A stretch of DNA of 6,146 nt from Planctomycetota bacterium (GTDB lineage Bacteria; Planctomycetota; B129-G9), in contig QNCA01000095.1 in the NCBI GenBank assembly GCA_003644325.1, positions 1 to 6,146 on the forward strand, written 5' to 3'. Below, one piece after another: positions 1 to 6,146 of the stretch. The translations under genes and the position numbers were made by a program. Below the pieces are notes generated by a model. That model saw only the letters and a program-made list of their open reading frames with translations. It ran no database searches and had not been told where the DNA came from. How positions within the stretch are numbered: position 1 is the stretch's first letter; the number at the start of each line of letters is the position of its first letter.

Positions 1-708
1 CGGCTGGGGCACTGCGCCGTCCCCGTTCGATAGGACCACGTCCGTTCCCGCCGGGAAGTTTGTATGCTTGTCCCAGTCGAAGCCGTGAATCTGGATGGGC
101 AGCGTCGTGGAGAGCGACCAAGTCTCGTGGACGACGTGGAAAATGCTGTCCGTGTGTCCGCAGACGTTTGCCTGGCCCATCGTCCCGTCGCCCATGCAGG
201 CCCTGTGGGCGCCGGCCATCAGGTAGCCGCGCCCGTGAACGCCCTGGAAGACCTCGATGGCGAACTCCGGCGTGTTCGTGTCGTAAAGCGGATGCGGCGC
301 TTCGATGAGGATGTCCTTGCCGCCTCCCGGATTCCAAATGTAGTTGCCCCAGCCGAGGTTCTGCTGGCCGTATTCGTTGAGCGCCTCGCGCAGCAGGTAG
401 AAATCACGGGACGTGTCGGTATCGTGATAGTGCACCAGTTCGTAACTCAGCGCCGCCGCCTGTGTCGAGGCGGTGTCGTAGTTCCCGTTCATGACCGATG
501 TGACGAGGGCGCGGTAGTCGTCCCGATTCTGCTGTGTCGGCAGGACGTACAGCATTGAGTTCTTTGGGAAGACCAAATCCTTCAGACGGTCTATCTCCGC
601 GGACAGACTGCCTGTTTCATCAATCGGCGCTGTGGCGGCGGATGAAGCAATGAGGAAAAACGGGAGTGCAAGGAGAAGAAGAAACGCAGACCTTTTTCCA
701 CAATTCAT
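1..708 (-). CDS. Secreted metal-hydrolase-like protein of unknown function (5' part, cut by window edge)
   Basis: The minus-strand frame is open from an ATG at 708 to base 1, giving 236 codons without a stop; the C-terminus lies outside the window. The start is supported by a GGAG Shine-Dalgarno 8 nt upstream and a strong promoter. Residues 1-27 look like a Sec signal peptide: Lys5/Arg6, a Leu/Phe-rich core at about 8-20, then a small-residue region ASSAATA. No lipobox is visible, so an exported soluble protein is likely. The mature part has histidine/acid-rich blocks: EAPHPLYDTNTPE (136-148), AGAHR (165-169), HTDSIFHVVHE (185-195) and IQIHGFD (205-211). Their order recalls zinc amidohydrolases of the N-formylglutamate amidohydrolase type (PHSG, then Arg/Asn, then a His pair). 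That similarity is from memory and weak, so no substrate is proposed. It is transcribed divergently from the NAD genes and probably unrelated to them. Confidence 0.8.
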   Translation of the reverse strand, partial: MNCGKRSAFLLLLALPFFLIASSAATAPIDETGSLSAEIDRLKDLVFPKNSMLYVLPTQQNRDDYRALVTSVMNGNYDTASTQAAALSYELVHYHDTDTSRDFYLLREALNEYGQQNLGWGNYIWNPGGGKDILIEAPHPLYDTNTPEFAIEVFQGVHGRGYLMAGAHRACMGDGTMGQANVCGHTDSIFHVVHETWSLSTTLPIQIHGFDWDKHTNFPAGTDVVLSNGDGAVPQP

Positions 709-716
709 GAGTCCGT

Positions 717-720
717 CTCC
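717..720 (-). promoter_or_regulatory. Shine-Dalgarno of the secreted protein gene
   Basis: On the minus strand GGAG sits 8 nt before the ATG at 708. This fixes the start and places the hydrophobic signal peptide at the true N-terminus. Confidence 0.75.
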
Positions 721-766
721 GAATTGACAGTTTCCGCACAAAAACACCACATTCAACTCTAAAAAC

Positions 767-794
767 ATTATACCACGTTGTGGCGCAAAGTCAA
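767..794 (-). promoter_or_regulatory. Sigma-70-type promoter of the secreted protein gene
   Basis: Reading leftward, TTGACT (794-789) and a perfect TATAAT (772-767) are separated by 16 bp. Transcription would start near 760 and give a leader of about 50 nt before the ATG at 708. Five of six -35 bases and six of six -10 bases match the consensus. The start site is inferred, not observed. Confidence 0.75.
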
Positions 795-824
795 GTAAAG
801 CGGCAAGAAAAAGGTTGATTTCAC

Positions 825-852
825 TTGACACCGCACTTCCCTCGGTTATATC
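825..852 (+). promoter_or_regulatory. Sigma-70-type promoter of the pncB/NAD salvage cluster
   Basis: A perfect TTGACA (825-830) is followed after 16 bp by TATATC (847-852, 4 of 6 matches). The predicted start near 859 gives pncB a leader of about 115 nt, almost all of it heptad repeat. The ACTTGAC containing this -35 box is an inverted copy of GTCAAGT (790-796) in the divergent promoter, so the two promoters are arranged nearly symmetrically. Confidence 0.6.
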
Positions 853-857
853 TAACC
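844..857. promoter_or_regulatory. Candidate operator: imperfect palindrome over the pncB -10 box
   Basis: GGTTA (844-848) and TAACC (853-857) are perfect inverted arms around TATC. Of the inner bases, A850 and T851 pair and T849/C852 do not. The palindrome covers the predicted -10 element, where a repressor would block polymerase. Because an NrtR-like protein is encoded in the same cluster, it is the first candidate binder, but I could not match the site to a known NrtR motif. Short palindromes also arise by chance. Confidence 0.35.
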
Positions 858-858
858 T

Positions 859-964
859 GGTGTAGGGTTTCAGGTTTCAGGTTTCAGGTTTTAGGTTTTA
901 GGTTTTAGGTTTCAGGTTTCAGGTTTCAGGTTTCAAGAATCCAGAATCCAGCGTCCAGTATGGA
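859..964. repeat. Heptad tandem repeat array in the pncB leader
   Basis: Ten exact-length 7-bp units fill 866-935: three GGTTTCA, three GGTTTTA, then four GGTTTCA. A degenerate unit, GGTGTAG (859-865), may precede them. After one extra base (A936) the 7-bp rhythm continues with different units: GAATCCA (937-943), GAATCCA (944-950), GCGTCCA (951-957) and GTATGGA (958-964). The last unit supplies part of the ribosome binding site of pncB. The array lies between the predicted transcription start and the start codon, so it would be transcribed. Confidence 0.9.
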
Positions 965-967
965 GAG
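962..967 (+). promoter_or_regulatory. Shine-Dalgarno that decides the pncB GTG start
   Basis: GGAGAG lies just upstream of the GTG at 974, with 8 nt between GGAG and the start codon. The nearby ATG at 960 is in another frame and overlaps this element, so GTG is preferred. Confidence 0.65.
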
Positions 968-973
968 CGTGCA

Positions 974-2350
974 GTGCCCGGAGAGCCGCAAACGTTTTTC
1001 CCGCCGGATGGGTATCTGCCGGCCGTCACCGATCTCTACGAGTTGACGATGGCGGCGGGATACTTCGAAAACGCAATCGACTACTCCGCGACCTTCGAAC
1101 TGTGGGTGCGTAACCTCCCGCCGCAGCGCTCCTACCTGATTGCCTGCGGGCTTGAAGACTGTGTGCGATATCTTTCCGACCTCTCTTTCTCTAAAGACAC
1201 CGTGGAGTATCTCCGGGCGCAGGAGGTTTTCAAGCACGTCAGCGACGCATTCTTCGACTACCTGCGCCGGATGAAATTCACGGGCGACATGTGGGCGATA
1301 CCCGAGGGCACGGTCGTCTTCGCGGGAGAGCCGCTCATCAGGATAACCGCGCCTATCATCGAGGCGCAACTCGTGGAGACTTTTCTCCTGTCGGTCATCA
1401 ACTACCAGACGACCGTCGCGACGAAGGCATCGCGGGTTGTGGATGCCGCCCACATGGGCGGCGTGGAGCGGCCGGTGGTGGACTTCGGCCTGCGCCGCGC
1501 ACACGGCCCCGGTGCAGGCATCAGCGCGGCGCGCGCATCGTTCATCGGCGGCTGCGCGGGGACTTCCAACGTCTATGCAGGCTATCGCCACGGCATCCCT
1601 GTCTACGGCACCGCCGCGCACTCATGGACCATGGCCTTCGACAGCGAACTCGAATCGTTCGAAAAATATTACAAGACATTTCCTGAATCCACCATATTGC
1701 TTATAGACACCTACGACGTGAAACAGGGCGCAATCAACGCCGCGAAGATAGGAGATGGACTGCGCGGCGTCAGGCTCGACAGCGGGGACCTGGTCGCGCA
1801 AAGCAAAATGGTGCGGCGAATCCTCGACGACGCCGGCCTTAAAAACGCGCAAATCGTCGCCAGCGGCGACCTGAACGAATACAAGATACGCGACATGCTG
1901 AGGGCCGGCGCGCTGCTGGACATATTCGGCGTGGGCACGGGGATGGTCGTCTCGTGCGACGCCCCCGCCCTTCAGTGCATATACAAACTCGTGGAGGAGC
2001 AAAAAGGCGGTCGAACCGTGTACAAGGCGAAGTTCAGCGAGGACAAGGCCATGTACCCCGGAGCGAAGCAGGTACGAAGGATTTCTAACGGCCACGGCGA
2101 ATTCCAGCGGGACGTGATTTGCCGGCATGACGAGAAGATGAAGGGCGAGGCCCTCCTGACCAAAATCCTGGAAGACGGAAAGCCGGTCGGCGGCCTGCCG
2201 GACATAAAGGAAATCCAGTCCCACGCAAAGGAGCAACTCGCCCGGTTGCCCGAGCGATACAAACGCTTCGACGGGGCGGACGTGTATCCCGTTTCGTACA
2301 GCCCGGCCCTCGAAGCCCTCCTGGAAGAAGTGAAGAAACAGTACCGCTGA
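974..2350 (+). CDS. pncB: Nicotinate phosphoribosyltransferase
   Basis: The 458-residue product is predicted to make nicotinate mononucleotide from nicotinate and phosphoribosyl pyrophosphate, with ATP hydrolysis, in the cytoplasm. It is the committed step of Preiss-Handler NAD salvage. Visible family signatures are TDLYELTMAAGY (19-30), DFGLRRAHG (170-178), GTAAHSWTM (212-220) carrying His216, the expected autophosphorylated histidine, RLDSGDL (267-273), SGDL (297-300) and the phosphate-binding GVGTGM (319-324). Length fits the bacterial NAPRTase type of about 440-490 residues. Translation starts at GTG 974, chosen for its Shine-Dalgarno and because the family N-terminus (around YLPAVTDLYELTM) follows at once. 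It is the first gene of the NAD cluster, behind a promoter and a heptad-repeat leader. A hairpin element begins 6 nt after its stop and could separate its expression from pncA. I see no frameshift or missing key residue. Confidence 0.95.
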   Translation: MPGEPQTFFPPDGYLPAVTDLYELTMAAGYFENAIDYSATFELWVRNLPPQRSYLIACGLEDCVRYLSDLSFSKDTVEYLRAQEVFKHVSDAFFDYLRRMKFTGDMWAIPEGTVVFAGEPLIRITAPIIEAQLVETFLLSVINYQTTVATKASRVVDAAHMGGVERPVVDFGLRRAHGPGAGISAARASFIGGCAGTSNVYAGYRHGIPVYGTAAHSWTMAFDSELESFEKYYKTFPESTILLIDTYDVKQGAINAAKIGDGLRGVRLDSGDLVAQSKMVRRILDDAGLKNAQIVASGDLNEYKIRDMLRAGALLDIFGVGTGMVVSCDAPALQCIYKLVEEQKGGRTVYKAKFSEDKAMYPGAKQVRRISNGHGEFQRDVICRHDEKMKGEALLTKILEDGKPVGGLPDIKEIQSHAKEQLARLPERYKRFDGADVYPVSYSPALEALLEEVKKQYR

Positions 2351-2355
2351 GCGCC

Positions 2356-2422
2356 GGGTCAGACCCGAATTACGGAACCTTTCGACGATAGGAGAAAGGT
2401 TCGTAGATTCGTGGTCTGACCC
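2356..2422. repeat. 67-nt REP-like imperfect palindrome (long hairpin) between pncB and pncA
   Basis: The sequence folds on itself almost completely: 2356-2365 pairs with 2413-2422 (10 bp), 2366-2370 with 2407-2411 (5 bp), 2371-2373 with 2403-2405 (3 bp) and 2375-2383 with 2394-2402 (9 bp). That is 27 Watson-Crick pairs with three single-base bulges (T2412, G2406, G2374) and a 10-nt loop (2384-2393). The outer arms are GGGTCAGACC and GGTCTGACCC. No T-run follows, so it is not a standard intrinsic terminator. The form suits a REP/MITE-type element mobilised by a Y1 (RAYT) transposase, or an mRNA-stabilising or attenuating hairpin inside the operon. The mobile-element reading is inference. Confidence 0.8.
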
Positions 2423-2450
2423 TCTCGTCCTCGTGAAGCGGATGGATTGA

Positions 2451-2460
2451 GGTCTGATCC
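2451..2460. repeat. Degenerate extra copy of the hairpin's outer arm
   Basis: GGTCTGATCC matches the 3' outer arm GGTCTGACCC (2413-2422) at nine of ten bases, 28 bp further on. It could be the remnant of a second element or an alternative pairing partner for 2356-2365. A ten-base match alone is weak evidence. Confidence 0.4.
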
Positions 2461-2483
2461 AAGCGAGGCCCAGGCAGAGAAAA

Positions 2484-3080
2484 ATGATGAAGAGCAAGAG
2501 AGCATTTCTCGACATCGACACGCAGCACGACTTCATGGACCCGGACGGCGCGCTGTACGTGCCGGGCGCGGGGGAGATCGTCGGCAACCTCGGACGCCTT
2601 GTCGCATACGCCCGGGATAACAACATTCCGCTGCTTTCTTCCATGGACGCTCACGCCGGGAACGACCCGGAGTTTGCGGAGTTCCCTCCGCACTGTGTAA
2701 AAGGCACGCCCGGGCAGCGCAAGATTGACGAGACGCTCCTCGAAAACACGATAATCGTGCCCGACAGGCCGGGCGCTCTGCCCGAGGGGGTGCGGGCGGG
2801 CGCGCAGGTGATATTCGAGAAGCCGACGTTCGACGTATTCGACAATCCGAACTTCGTTGAATATATCGAGCGGGAAGGGTACGATGAGTTCGTGGTGTTC
2901 GGCGTCGCGACGGACTATTGCGTTCGCGCGGCGGCGGCGGGCCTTGCAAGGCGCGGCTTCAGCGTCGCCGTCGTCACCGACGCCGTAAGGGCCGTGATGC
3001 TGGAGACCGGCGCAAAGGCGCTGGAAGAGATGAAGGGTCTTGGCGTGAAATTCAAAACCACCGACGAGATAACCGGATGA
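2484..3080 (+). CDS. pncA: Nicotinamidase-like cysteine hydrolase (isochorismatase fold)
   Basis: The 198-residue product is predicted to hydrolyse nicotinamide to nicotinate and ammonia, feeding PncB. The catalytic triad of the family is present: Asp12 in DTQHDF (12-17), Lys113 in FEKPTF and Cys146 in GVATDYCV (140-147). Likely metal ligands are Asp55 and His57 (MDAH) and His70 (PPHCVKGTPG), the usual nicotinamidase pattern; the fourth ligand seen in the mycobacterial enzyme (its His57) has no obvious counterpart. The DAH in place of the common DWH makes it a slightly divergent member, so another amide substrate is possible, but its place between pncB and nadE strongly favours nicotinamide. 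Two ATGs (2484, 2487) are in tandem and the ribosome binding site is weak (AGGCAGAG, 2473-2480). The stop overlaps the nadE start in ATGA, suggesting translational coupling. Confidence 0.88.
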   Translation: MMKSKRAFLDIDTQHDFMDPDGALYVPGAGEIVGNLGRLVAYARDNNIPLLSSMDAHAGNDPEFAEFPPHCVKGTPGQRKIDETLLENTIIVPDRPGALPEGVRAGAQVIFEKPTFDVFDNPNFVEYIEREGYDEFVVFGVATDYCVRAAAAGLARRGFSVAVVTDAVRAVMLETGAKALEEMKGLGVKFKTTDEITG

Positions 3081-4711
3081 AGATAGCGCTGGCACAAGTC
3101 AACCCCACGGTGGGCGACCTTGAGAACAACACGCGCAGGATACTCGCCTTCGTCAAGCGCGCGCGGGACGAGGGCGCGGACCTGGTGGTCTGTCCGGAGA
3201 TGGCCATAGTAGGTTACCCCCCGATGGACCTCCTGCTGAAGAAGGCGCTTGTGAAGAAAAACCTTGAGAAGTTGGAGGAGATAGCCCGCGCGAGCGCGAA
3301 CATCGGAATCGTCTGCGGCTTTGTCTCCAGGAACGAGGCAGGCGGTGCTCCCCTGCTCCACAACAGCGCCGCGCTTTGCCACGGGGGCAAGGTGGTCGCA
3401 ACCGTACACAAGTCCCTCCTGCCGACCTACGATATATTCGACGAGCGGCGGTACTTCGAGCCTTCCGTGGGGGTAAAGCCCGTCGAGTTTCAAGGGGTGA
3501 AAATCGGACTTTCCATCTGCGAAGACATCTGGAACGACCGCACCTTTTGGCCGCGGCCGATGTACCCGCATGACCCCATAGAGGACCTTGTCGCCCGGGG
3601 CGCGGAAATACTCATCAACATATCGGCCTCGCCCTTTGTGGTCGGGCGGCCGGAGATGAAGGCCCGGATGTTGGCCAACGTCGCCCGCAGGCATAAGATT
3701 CCGCTGGTCGCCGTCAACCAGGTCGGAGGCAACACCGGCATCCTCTTCGAGGGCGGCAGCACCTGCTTCAACTCAAAGGGCGAAGTCGTCGCGCGCGCAA
3801 AGTCCTTCGAGGAGGATTTCCTCATTTTTGACACGGAGGCCGCCTCCTGTCCGGTGCGTTCGTGGCCCCACGGAGACGCCGCCATGCTTTACGCCGCCCT
3901 GGTGATGGGCACGCGGGACTACATGCGCAAGTGCGGCTTCAAAACGGCCGTCATCGGCGTCAGCGGCGGCATCGACTCCGCGCTTGTTGCGGCGATTGCC
4001 GTTGATGCGCTCGGGGCCGAGAGCGTATTCGGCGTGTTCATGCCTTCGCGCTACTCCTCTGAACGGAGCAGGGACGACGCCCTGGCCCTGGCGCGGAATC
4101 TGGGCATCGGGTTGAGGATCATATCAATAGAAAACATCTTCAAGAAATATCTCGACGCCCTTAAGGGGGCGTTCAAGGGAAGGGATGAGGACGTAACCGA
4201 GGAAAACATCCAGGCGCGCATAAGGGGCAACGTATTGATGGCGATGTCCAACAAGTTCGGCGACCTGGTGCTCGCCACCGGCAACAAAAGCGAACTCGCC
4301 GTGGGCTACTGCACGCTCTACGGCGACATGAGCGGCGGACTGACCGTTATAGGGGATGTGCCGAAGACGACCGTCTATGAACTGGCCGGGCACGTAAACC
4401 GTGAAAGGGAGATCATTCCCGCGGGCATCCTCAAGAAGCCGCCCTCCGCCGAACTGCGTCCGAACCAGACCGACCAGGACACGCTGCCGCCCTACGAGGA
4501 GCTCGACCCGATATTGAAACTCTACATCGAAGAGAGCGCGGACAGGGATGAAATTGTCGCGCGGGGCCATGACGCCCGGCTTGTCGACAGGGTGCTGAAG
4601 ATGGTTGACCGCAATGAATACAAGCGCCGTCAGGCCGCGCCATGCCTGCGCGTAACCGCGAAGGCGTTCGGCTTCGGCCGCAGATTCCCCATAGCGCAGG
4701 GCTGGAGATAG
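3077..4711 (+). CDS. nadE: Glutamine-dependent NAD+ synthetase
   Basis: The 544-residue product is predicted to amidate nicotinate adenine dinucleotide to NAD+ using ATP and ammonia from glutamine. The N-terminal nitrilase-like glutaminase domain (about 1-260) carries the triad Glu41 (CPEM), Lys112 (HKSLLP) and Cys148 (SICEDIW). The C-terminal synthetase domain (about 270-544) has the pyrophosphate-binding loop SGGIDS (296-301), LATGNKSE (399-406), the YCTLYGDMSGG block (411-421) and PPSAELRPNQTDQD (455-468). Length matches the shorter bacterial two-domain enzymes. The ATG at 3077 overlaps the pncA stop (ATGA) and starts directly with MKIALAQVNPTVGD, the family N-terminus. The same frame is open further upstream, from an ATG at 2918, but those 53 codons lie inside pncA and encode Arg-rich nonsense, so that start is rejected. 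All catalytic residues are present. Confidence 0.97.
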   Translation: MKIALAQVNPTVGDLENNTRRILAFVKRARDEGADLVVCPEMAIVGYPPMDLLLKKALVKKNLEKLEEIARASANIGIVCGFVSRNEAGGAPLLHNSAALCHGGKVVATVHKSLLPTYDIFDERRYFEPSVGVKPVEFQGVKIGLSICEDIWNDRTFWPRPMYPHDPIEDLVARGAEILINISASPFVVGRPEMKARMLANVARRHKIPLVAVNQVGGNTGILFEGGSTCFNSKGEVVARAKSFEEDFLIFDTEAASCPVRSWPHGDAAMLYAALVMGTRDYMRKCGFKTAVIGVSGGIDSALVAAIAVDALGAESVFGVFMPSRYSSERSRDDALALARNLGIGLRIISIENIFKKYLDALKGAFKGRDEDVTEENIQARIRGNVLMAMSNKFGDLVLATGNKSELAVGYCTLYGDMSGGLTVIGDVPKTTVYELAGHVNREREIIPAGILKKPPSAELRPNQTDQDTLPPYEELDPILKLYIEESADRDEIVARGHDARLVDRVLKMVDRNEYKRRQAAPCLRVTAKAFGFGRRFPIAQGWR

Positions 4712-4715
4712 GATA

Positions 4716-4824
4716 GGTGAAAGGTGAAAGGTCACAGGTGAAAGACAGTAGACGAGTAGGGAGCAGGAGAATAGGAGCGGGACGGAATCCGACATCCGAT
4801 GTCCGGCATCCGCAATCCGAACAT
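4716..4824. repeat. Heptad-periodic spacer between nadE and the Nudix regulator
   Basis: Starting 4 nt after the nadE stop, the DNA reads in 7-bp units: GGTGAAA, GGTGAAA, GGTCACA, GGTGAAA (4716-4743), then looser units GACAGTA, GACGAGT, AGGGAGC, AGGAGAA, TAGGAGC (4744-4778). After four bases a second set begins: CGGAATC, CGACATC, CGATGTC, CGGCATC, CGCAATC, CGAACAT (4783-4824). The last unit contains the first two bases of the Nudix start codon. No promoter or terminator is clear here, and the array leaves no room for a normal Shine-Dalgarno. Confidence 0.85.
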
Positions 4825-5482
4825 GTCTTATACATATGAATACGAGCGACCCGCTGTGACCGTGGATGCGTTGCTGCTGGGTCTGATGGACGACGCGCTG
4901 AACGTCCTGCTCATCAAGCGCGGCAATTATCCCTACGAGGGGAAGTGGGCGCTGCCGGGCGGGTTCGTCGATATGGATGAGAATCTTGAGGATGCCGCTG
5001 CGCGTGAGTTGCGGGAAGAAACGGGCGTCAGCGGCGTCGCGCTGAAACAATTCCGCGCCTTCGGCGACGTCGGCCGCGACCCGCGTTCGCGGAACATCTC
5101 GGTCATCTACCATGCGCTGGTCAAACCGGACGAGGTCGCGCTCAAGCCCGGCGACGACGCGAGCGACGCGCGCTGGTTTCCAGCGTACGACCTGCCGGAC
5201 ACGGCCTTCGACCATGACATGATAATCGGAATGATGCTCGACCGGCTGCGATTCGAGGTGCGACACACCCTTGTCGTGTTCGACCTACTGCCGGAGGTCT
5301 TCACGATGGAGCAACTGGCCGGGGCGCTGGGCGCCTGTCTCAACAAAAAGGTGTCGCCGCGAATCGTGAAGGAGAGGATGGCGGAACTCGGCATCGCGGT
5401 GGAAGGGAAGAAGGGGACTTACCGTATCGACCGCGAGGCCGCGCGGCAAAAATCCGAGACCATGGGATTCTTTCCCCTGTGA
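4823..5482 (+). CDS. Nudix protein with C-terminal winged-helix-like domain, NrtR-type regulator or ADP-ribose pyrophosphatase
   Basis: The 219-residue product has an N-terminal Nudix domain (about 1-140) and a C-terminal extension (about 148-205) resembling the winged-helix domain of NrtR, the ADP-ribose-responsive repressor of NAD genes. The Nudix box at 47-69 is complete: Gly47, Glu53, Arg61-Glu62, Glu65-Glu66 and Gly68. Hydrolysis of ADP-ribose or a similar nucleotide is therefore possible, whereas many NrtR proteins have a degenerate box. GDVGRDPRSR (81-90) resembles the ADP-ribose-recognition segment of this subfamily. Location beside pncB, pncA and nadE supports a role in controlling or supporting NAD metabolism. 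The ATG at 4823 is chosen because MSYTYEYERPAVTVD matches the usual family N-terminus. The in-frame ATG at 4799 would only add residues translated from the heptad repeat. No Shine-Dalgarno is visible. A plain housekeeping ADP-ribose pyrophosphatase is the alternative. Confidence 0.82.
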   Translation: MSYTYEYERPAVTVDALLLGLMDDALNVLLIKRGNYPYEGKWALPGGFVDMDENLEDAAARELREETGVSGVALKQFRAFGDVGRDPRSRNISVIYHALVKPDEVALKPGDDASDARWFPAYDLPDTAFDHDMIIGMMLDRLRFEVRHTLVVFDLLPEVFTMEQLAGALGACLNKKVSPRIVKERMAELGIAVEGKKGTYRIDREAARQKSETMGFFPL

Positions 5483-5485
5483 CAG

Positions 5486-5509
5486 CGGTATCTATCGGTA
5501 TCCGGATTG
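5486..5509. repeat. Short direct repeat in the Nudix-DUF4416 gap
   Basis: CGGTATC occurs at 5486-5492 and again at 5496-5502. The second copy is followed by CGGATTG (5503-5509) and then the ATG, so two 7-bp units abut the start codon. This may be a small remnant of the heptad pattern seen in the other spacers, but the stretch is too short to be certain. Confidence 0.4.
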
Positions 5510-6049
5510 ATGGCGAAAGCAAGACCATCACAACCCGCAACCCTGATAGCGGGAATCCTCAGCGCGTTTCCGGAGATGTTCGACGTCTGCGAGGAGATAC
5601 TGGCGAAGGAATACGGCCCCGTTTCTCTGAGCAGCGACGTCTTCGACTTCACGTACACAGACTATTACAACGAAGAGATGGGGGAGGGAATAAAGCGGAA
5701 GTTCCTCGCGTTCGAGCGATTGATACAACCCGACGAAATCGCCGCCATAAAGATTCGCACAAACGAGATTGAGCGCGACATCGCCGCGAAAGGTGACAGT
5801 CGCCTTTCCGTTCCCCGTCCCGTCAACCTGGACCCGGGTTACATCGACGCAGGCAAACTGGTCCTCGCCACGGTAAAAGACCAGGCCCACCGCATCTACC
5901 TGGGCGGCGGCATCTACGCCGAGGTCACCCTCTACTGGAAGCACGGCGCGTGGGAAACATGGCCCTGGACCTACGCCGACTACCGCTCTTCAGCCTACCA
6001 GCGATTCTTTGCAGAGGTGCGTGAGCATCATCTAAGGAAGAGGCAGTAG
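5510..6049 (+). CDS. DUF4416 family protein of unknown function
   Basis: The 179-residue product has the recognisable blocks of DUF4416: LIAGILS near the N-terminus (12-18), FDFTYTDYYNEEMG (45-58), FERLIQPDEIAAIKIRTNEIE (68-88), VNLDPGYID (105-113), LVLATVKDQAHRIYLGGGIYAEVTLYW (117-143) and WPWTYADYR (151-159). The family has no established function. Its conserved Asp, Glu, Tyr and His residues hint at a metal- or nucleotide-related role, but that is speculation. No signal peptide or membrane segment is seen. It starts 27 nt after the Nudix stop and is probably cotranscribed. ATG 5510 is preferred over the TTG just before it at 5507; the ribosome binding site is weak. Residues about 96-102 (DSRLSVP) seem to lengthen the loop before VNLDPGY compared with what I recall of the family. 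The last codons belong to a heptad repeat, so the C-terminal tail (LRKRQ) may be repeat-derived. Confidence 0.85.
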   Translation: MAKARPSQPATLIAGILSAFPEMFDVCEEILAKEYGPVSLSSDVFDFTYTDYYNEEMGEGIKRKFLAFERLIQPDEIAAIKIRTNEIERDIAAKGDSRLSVPRPVNLDPGYIDAGKLVLATVKDQAHRIYLGGGIYAEVTLYWKHGAWETWPWTYADYRSSAYQRFFAEVREHHLRKRQ

Positions 6050-6103
6050 GCAGAAGGCGGAAGAAAGAAAACGGTAGTCAGTAGTCAGTAGTCGGTAGTA
6101 TCT
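6041..6103. repeat. Heptad repeat array overlapping the end of the DUF4416 gene
   Basis: Nine consecutive 7-bp units run from inside the last codons: AGGCAGT, AGGCAGA, AGGCGGA, AGAAAGA, AAACGGT, AGTCAGT, AGTCAGT, AGTCGGT and AGTATCT. The TAG stop (6047-6049) spans the junction of the first two units. The unit sequence differs from the other arrays but the period is the same. Confidence 0.85.
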
Positions 6104-6146
6104 GCGTTTATTTCCCGACAAACCTGATTAACATACCCCCAGACTA
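6104..6146. other. Right-hand end, nothing recognised
   Basis: These 43 bases after the heptad array are more AT-rich than the genes. I see no start codon with a ribosome binding site, no terminator hairpin and no tRNA-like sequence. It is probably intergenic DNA before the next gene. Confidence 0.5.

Follow-up and report, generated by a model that had tools for sequence, protein, structure and literature searches.

How can one step of seven bases be shared by tandem repeats whose letters are unrelated? The question is raised by a stretch of 6,146 nucleotides (nt) from a Planctomycetota bacterium (assembly GCA_003644325.1, contig QNCA01000095.1, positions 1 to 6,146), here called the window, in which three spacers next to genes, at 866-964 (spacer 1), 4716-4824 (spacer 2) and 6041-6103 (spacer 3), hold tandem arrays of heptamers. 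The genome to which the window belongs has 2,279,701 bases (2.28 Mb) in 471 contigs and is 79.7% complete. In this work we have followed the arrays from the window into the rest of its genome, into relatives and into public genomes. The finding is real, and the arrays belong among the known heptamer repeats of bacteria, though they are unusually diverse. Replication slippage with a ruler of seven bases is the best account of how the arrays grew.

Heptamer rhythm in the three spacers

An earlier note on this DNA had described a 7-bp rhythm in all three spacers, and comparison of each with 3,000 dinucleotide-preserving shuffles bears this out. Letters seven positions apart (lag 7) were identical at 80 of 92 positions in spacer 1 (0.87; shuffles: mean 0.28, maximum 0.47), at 53 of 102 in spacer 2 (0.52; mean 0.28, maximum 0.45) and at 40 of 56 in spacer 3 (0.71; mean 0.29, maximum 0.54), with p = 1/3001 each time; at the remaining lags from 5 to 10 identity was 0.10 to 0.47. 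Tandem Repeats Finder (TRF) picked out the same three spacers. The rhythm of spacer 2 is confined to its two ends, and its middle is not periodic (Table 1). The units had also been described as differing within each spacer. This is so in spacers 1 and 2, but in spacer 3 the units AGGCAGT and AGTCAGT, when rotated to AGTAGGC and AGTAGTC, prove to be a single family one base apart, and a seven-column printout shows array 3b in register with array 3a. Where GGTTTCA gives way to GAATCCA in spacer 1, a one-base slip fits slightly better than an unbroken phase (by hand count, 4 of 7 letters agree with the slip and 3 of 7 in phase), which offers no support for phase-keeping across unrelated units. 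The rest of the first gap (709-865, p = 0.33) and the stretches 2351-2483 (p = 0.57) and 5483-5575 (p = 0.29), the last of which runs into the DUF4416 frame if its start is at 5507, are not 7-periodic. Units of the window's arrays contain GG at most. We rejected the G-quadruplex as a common cause because these units have no GGG run, though other families of the same genome, for example GGGGCAA, do contain GGG.

Recurrence within the genome, in relatives and in other phyla

Is the step of seven bases a peculiarity of these spacers? The sample of the window's genome comprised 43 readable contigs with 479,220 bases, about a fifth of the total. Some totals for this genome (coding and intergenic lag-7 segments, families, strand, placement and two-copy counts) refer nominally to up to 578 kb, since 38 of the 80 contigs fetched consist of N alone; 479 kb of this is readable. 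Genes were called with a home-made codon-usage script, and distances to stop codons are accurate to a few nt. Perfect intergenic dimers with a unit of k = 7 numbered 38 against 2.6 in shuffled sequence (maximum 5 in 10 shuffles), compared with 4 against 0.3 for k = 8, 20 against 11.8 for k = 6, 27 against 35 for k = 5 and 0 against 0.5 for k = 9. Lag-7 segments were found 17 times in intergenic and twice in coding DNA, and never in simulated or shuffled sequence. The window's heptamers are tandem beyond chance, and in the 479 kb read heptamer arrays are dispersed between genes and rare in coding DNA. The proposal that one 7-base step is shared by unrelated sequences is thereby strengthened, since it recurs in other spacers of the genome, and the scan for period 7 which the earlier note had called for revealed an excess in the other intergenic regions.

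A distant relative, the planctomycete E44_bin39 (G014), was sampled as 20 stretches with 375 kb, 9 of which were picked for GGTTTCA hits. Here perfect intergenic dimers were 124 against 2.9 for k = 7 and 66 against 0.6 for k = 8, with 26 against 12.2 for k = 6, three against 0.6 for k = 9 and 27 against 36.4 for k = 5, and 106 intergenic lag-7 segments were accompanied by a second peak at period 8. The 11 stretches not picked for GGTTTCA held 45 of these segments in 195 kb, or one per 4.3 kb, and the picked ones held one per 3.0 kb. In one G014 spacer (L154:8022-8092) a period-7 GGGATAA array runs into a period-8 GGGAATAA array, as if a one-base insertion had then been amplified. G001, which belongs to the same genus as the window's genome, had three lag-7 segments in 28 kb; there was one in 60 kb of G012 and one in 100 kb of G027, and 29 kb of G015 had one between genes and two in coding DNA. 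No such segments were found in G002 (36 kb), G003 (31 kb), G005 (80 kb), G018 (6.5 kb) and G019 (60 kb), and perfect 7-bp dimers did not exceed simulation in G005, G012, G019 and G027 or in 50 kb of E. coli. Period 7, joined by period 8 in G014, stands out in the intergenic DNA examined.

Three copies of GGTTTCA occur in 9 and three copies of AGTAGTC in 5 of 392 Planctomycetota genomes. Because both patterns were taken from the window's genome, it is better left out, which gives 8 and 4 of 391; one genome (G276) has both, against 0.08 expected if they were independent. Reversed control patterns were found in 1 and 2 Planctomycetota genomes. Scanning public genomes with 24 bases of array 1 yielded at least 120 stretches. 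The 80 among the matches listed cover at least nine phyla by their titles, Flavobacterium most often, and many of these loci carry further heptamer families too. Since they were fetched with a GGTTTCA-type pattern, these public-genome loci, hereafter the named loci, are biased to period 7 and to the GGTTTCA family; on the short ones genes were called one locus at a time, which is weaker. Two of the 80 (L208 and L238) are G014 itself, and they are counted in the family survey and left out of the class, strand, placement and seed-family counts.

Could the arrays have spread as small mobile or gene-converted pieces? Families do recur at separate loci (the AAACCTG class at 4 in the window's genome and 12 in G014), and the 3' arms of three GATT-type hairpins of G014 (L152:7691, L154:1803 and L158:16873) are identical or nearly so. 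Array flanks in G014 resembled another flank in 25 of 78 cases, against 12 of 106 for control spacers, but among the best 12 of 32 flank matches 4 are overlapping or touching windows of one locus and the remaining 8 are 30 to 59 bp long. In the window's genome the comparison goes the other way (6 of 18 against 79 of 197, these controls carrying a separate dispersed repeat), and AGGTTTCAGGTTTCAGGTTTCAGG was present in only 18 stretches of the viral collection. We consider such a spread very unlikely.

Placement next to stop codons and the strand rule

The arrays follow a rule of strand; those with as many G as C were excluded from the counts. On the mRNA strand, period-7 arrays no farther than 20 nt from a stop codon were G-rich in 9 of 9 cases in the window's genome, 31 of 36 in G014 and 50 of 62 at the named loci, and the same was seen for period-8 arrays in G014 (17 of 21) and at the named loci (5 of 6). 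Farther from the stop they lean to C-rich, only 2 of 5, 17 of 45 and 22 of 84 period-7 arrays being G-rich, respectively; for period 8 the figures are 3 of 15 in G014 and 7 of 17 at the named loci. Neither the choice of stretches nor the seed family accounts for this bias, which holds in the 11 G014 stretches outside the GGTTTCA selection (G-rich in 11 of 13 near stops and 7 of 17 far from them) and at the named loci without the seed family (33 of 42 and 9 of 36). Stop triplets built into the units were tried as a cause and rejected, as the TGA of the seed family is on the opposite strand and yet 17 arrays against 3 were G-rich in sense near stops. Arrays 2a and 3a of the window obey the rule, and spacer 2 goes from G-rich to C-rich.

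The strand bias is what would be expected if ribosome-free, G-rich RNA past the stop codon paired with its template and stalled replication, so that pieces of 7-8 bp were copied again. Yet the 50 nt past stops are G-rich anyway: with arrays included, G-rich against C-rich cases were 114 and 96 in the window's genome, 118 and 61 in G014 and 176 and 134 at the named loci, a lean which is mild in the first and last and clear in G014. Moreover, in divergent spacers of G014, which contain no stop codon, 8 of 10 left halves are G-rich and 8 of 12 right halves C-rich, so gene direction is not the sole driver, and this weighs against a purely gene-directed cause. We regard the transcription-linked origin as unlikely.

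Where in the spacers do the arrays lie? Of the 43 array clusters in codirectional G014 spacers, 35 were closer to the upstream stop than to the downstream start, with median distances of 6 and 87 nt. Codirectional arrays of periods 7 and 8 lay no more than 10 nt from the stop in 30 of 93 cases in G014 (1000 random placements: mean 14.5, maximum 27) and in 38 of 145 at the named loci (mean 20.3, maximum 33), whereas the 4 of 5 in the window's genome are inside the random range (maximum 5). In the window, array 2a begins at the base right after the stop codon (distance 0), and arrays 2a and 3a are nearer the upstream stop than the downstream start; array 1 is not, and no stop is near it. Divergent spacers held 8 of 60 array clusters.

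It has been proposed for the TAACTGA repeats of Beggiatoaceae that they act in translational regulation (MacGregor 2015, in the parts compared here), and arrays serving as binding sites of a regulator might be suspected here too, given that array 1 sits 15 nt upstream of a start codon (974). Overall, the start-side placement of the TAACTGA type was not found: codirectional arrays within 10 nt of a start were 7 of 93 in G014, far fewer than those at stops, and 17 of 145 at the named loci, although in the window array 1b is just upstream of a start and array 2b at or inside that of the NUDIX gene. Together with the many unrelated families in one genome, this makes a role as regulator sites highly improbable.

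Paired arrays and RNA folding

In G014 and at the named loci neighbouring arrays often match each other in inverted orientation. Among 39 pairs of neighbouring period-7 arrays in G014, 26 matched better inverted, 4 better direct and 9 equally, and the pairs with at least 6 of 7 letters matching were 19 inverted and 0 direct; at the named loci 23 period-7 pairs were inverted and 10 ran in the same direction. The G-rich arm came first in 19 of 20 inverted period-7 pairs in G014, in 21 of 23 at the named loci and in 5 of 6 in the G014 stretches not picked for GGTTTCA; for period 8 the figures were 3 of 5 in G014 and 2 of 2 at the named loci. The window's genome showed no period-7 inverted pair at 6 of 7 letters and one at period 8. 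At L154 and L157 of G014 a short hairpin, GCGGCGCAGCTTGCTGCGCG, was seen by eye repeatedly, next to heptamer arrays or between them.

It may be that the arrays are arms of hairpins at mRNA 3' ends, terminators or stabilisers under selection, which are enlarged by whole units while the pairing of their core is kept. Besides the excess of inverted pairs and the stop-proximal placement in G014 and at the named loci, this explanation draws on predicted folding, which gave z of -5.8 to -8.9 for all four G014 hairpins tested, and on the slightly greater likeness of G014 arms from the same locus (0.731) than from different loci (0.658). In Xanthomonas, too, heptamers lie close to the upstream stop codon and are found in convergent pairs, and those able to form G-quadruplexes coincide with starts or ends of transcripts more often than a control group does (PMC4692102, as far as its text was compared). 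In the window, on the other hand, the suspicion that RNA structure constrains the arrays found no backing: the three spacers are not predicted to fold beyond their shuffles (z of -0.05, 0.06 and -0.18), and z was +1.56 for spacer L016 of the same genome and -2.18 for the 46-nt array of L119. Hairpins are therefore a frequent outcome in G014 and not the common denominator, and no structure need be selected in the window's spacers. The lack of a strongly matching period-7 pair in the window's genome, its stop-side placement within the random range and the arrays in divergent spacers also speak against hairpin selection, as do the G014 arms, which are not mirror images. Copying of one arm as the mirror of the other was rejected on these arms, whose correlation was -0.48 at unit position 5 and 0.16 at position 7 (13 loci, a small sample). 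On balance we see hairpin selection as possible, but lean against it.

Slippage as the origin of the arrays

Our hypothesis is that the arrays were built up in the gaps behind genes by replication slippage, 7 bp at a time, and that each family probably goes back to a separate chance seed; we judge it about equally likely to be right or wrong. Slip-outs of seven bases exceed the size handled by MutS-type repair. They would escape such repair and be tolerated by the polymerase, whose contact length they would match. Retention would then be filtered by place and strand, arrays surviving best when they abut a stop codon and their G-rich strand is the mRNA, and where a C-rich partner arose downstream the transcript could fold into a 3'-end hairpin. 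The earlier note had argued that slippage cannot give one period from unrelated sequences. This objection finds no support: a 7-bp slippage bias tied to the polymerase's contact with DNA is a published hypothesis: in the parts of PMC4692102 compared here, a proposal is cited that heptamers reflect the length of DNA touching the polymerase.

Some features of the arrays are such as slippage would leave. The variants of array 1 come in runs (Table 1), and two G014 arrays (L155:12866 and L167:1) contain 21-bp higher-order repeats, that is, blocks of three units. One orthologous spacer was found (L119 in the window's genome, L316 in G001): the end of the gene is conserved through its TGA, after which five GGT-headed heptamers stand in the former and three in the latter, and past the heptamers the DNA is no longer recognisably alike. 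For L120 and L020 there were no orthologous spacers to compare, because the genes abut in G003 and G002. Loss of mismatch repair was considered as a cause and is not needed, since MutS_V was found in 29 of 30 genomes, including the window's, G001 and G014.

Several observations weigh against slippage. The three heptamers of G001 share little beyond GGT and fall below the threshold of the lag-7 scan. Slippage from random seeds should leave many isolated two-copy 7-bp duplications, and these are barely in excess in the window's genome (16 against 11.7) and G014 (15 against 11.7; in G001, 5 against 0.3). At 13 G014 loci units of an arm that lie side by side resembled each other no more than units farther apart (0.778 and 0.768), so the signature of runs is weak there. 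Segments at other periods also exist in the window's genome, namely five for k = 9, four for k = 10 and three for k = 6, against 0 in shuffled sequence, and one for k = 8. Lastly, slippage alone does not explain the strand rule and the anchoring at stop codons, the recurrence of GGTTTCA in at least nine phyla, or the period and core common to both arms of a hairpin. Could a single process with a ruler of 7 to 8 bases write arrays of unrelated sequence into gene gaps in many phyla, under one strand law by which, on either strand, the G-rich array comes first (against the stop codon) and the C-rich one second? We think this rather doubtful; if it were true, a strand law independent of sequence would point to a general copying mechanism, linked to transcription or to the replication fork, that builds 3'-end hairpins from scratch.

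Genes of the window and other repeats

From their domains, the genes of the window look like a set for NAD salvage, with a nicotinate phosphoribosyltransferase (NAPRTase), an isochorismatase-domain protein which its gene context suggests to be nicotinamidase-like, an NAD synthetase, a NUDIX protein and a DUF4416 protein (Table 1). NAPRT, nadE and DUF4416 were not found when searched for in G001; the NUDIX gene was not part of that search.

Table 1. Arrays and genes in the window (positions are those of the 6,146-nt stretch)
Feature	Position	Strand	Remarks
Gene without Pfam match	1-708	-	Pfam search
Array 1a	866-935	+	Ten heptamers: GGTTTCA x3, GGTTTTA x3, GGTTTCA x4; TRF score 119; lag-7 segment reaches 859-958
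Array 1b	936-958	+	About 3 GAATCCA-type heptamers; TRF 936-951; 936-964 lag-7 16/22, p = 1/3001
NAPRTase gene	974-2350	+	PF17767, PF17956, PF04095; downstream of spacer 1
Isochorismatase-domain gene	2484-3080	+	PF00857
NAD synthetase-type gene	3077-4711	+	PF00795, PF02540; stop codon abuts array 2a
Array 2a	4712-4744	+	GGTGAAA heptamers, G-rich in sense; lag-7 segment score 15
Middle of spacer 2	4745-4786		42 bases, not 7-periodic: 11/35, p = 0.70
Array 2b	4787-4820	+	ATCCGAC-type heptamers at the spacer's far end, C-rich in sense; TRF; 4785-4824 20/33, p = 1/3001
NUDIX-domain gene	4799-5482	+	PF00293; downstream of spacer 2, overlaps array 2b with start at 4799
DUF4416 gene	5507-6049	+	PF14385; stop codon inside array 3a
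Array 3a	6041-6063	+	AGGCAGT/AGGCAGA heptamers; TRF; 6041-6070 17/23, p = 1/3001
Array 3b	6070-6103	+	AGTCAGT heptamers; TRF 6074-6099; 20/27, p = 1/3001

Some other repeats were noticed on the way. By eye, phrases like CACGGATTACACGGATT and ATCTGCGTTTATTT with a step of about 10 bp stand beside heptamer arrays at window 6100-6113, L008:1010-1038, L111:171-200 and L017:11610-11640, and the spacer between the NAPRT and isochorismatase genes (window 2356-2460) has GGTCAGACC / GGTCTGACC motifs, with similar GGTCTGAC/GTCAGAC in a G001 spacer (L316:1300-1480). A dispersed repeat of about 125 bp, which holds GGTGACAGTCACC twice (L012:1-125 and elsewhere), gave 59 full or partial BLAST hits in the 43 readable contigs of the window's genome; several are at contig ends, and the repeat may be one cause of the fragmentation of the assembly. 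Partly matching it is a 113-bp piece resembling a miniature inverted-repeat transposable element, with the inverted ends CTCAAGTTGACTGA / TCAGTCAACTTGAG, between two heptamer arrays (L119:6332-6444).

Relation to known heptamer repeats and significance

The short tandemly repeated repetitive (STRR) sequences of heterocystous cyanobacteria are intergenic heptanucleotide tandem repeats of several families. The resemblance to them that had been suggested for the window is a fair one, the difference being the host lineage, and we are not aware of any stop-codon or strand rule for STRR. The comparisons that follow refer to the parts of each publication that we could set against our data. Heptamers described in Xanthomonas (GGGAATC) and Nostoc (GGGGA(C/T)T) are also intergenic, stop-proximal and convergently paired; in Xanthomonas they lie on average 28 nt from the upstream open reading frame as against 160 nt, form 70 and 75 convergent pairs and differ in length among related species (PMC4692102). 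There, one G-rich family per genome was described with a focus on G-quadruplexes, whereas here many families stand side by side, the window's units lack GGG, G014 has period-8 arrays and the order of arms, with the G-rich one leading, extends across families. TAACTGA repeats are likewise intergenic heptamer direct repeats over distant phyla (Beggiatoaceae, cyanobacteria and Bacteroidetes), but they have a single unit, lie mostly just upstream of start codons in the main genome, and related heptamers are rare (PMC4679880). The satellite (GATAGRA)n of Chloroflexus aurantiacus, derived from a heptamer, also forms arrays scattered in one genome, but as a single family for which that account gives no pairing or placement rule (PMC6749651).

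Heptamer arrays, their proximity to stops, convergent pairs and the idea of a polymerase footprint have thus been published for Xanthomonas (PMC4692102); what is new, by our searches, is that a single genome has many families and that a strand rule is seen in several phyla. We found no report of such a multi-family, strand-ruled pattern among the listed matches of searches in the open-licence literature. The over-representation of heptamers in bacteria is known, and the literature compared here offers no explanation for it. Many unrelated families with a common step size and a strand rule separate the ruler from the letters, and a genome of this kind is a test bed for asking whether polymerase, transcription or the selection of hairpins sets the ruler. 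Our results suggest that in such genomes the 3' flanks of genes evolve in jumps of seven bases.

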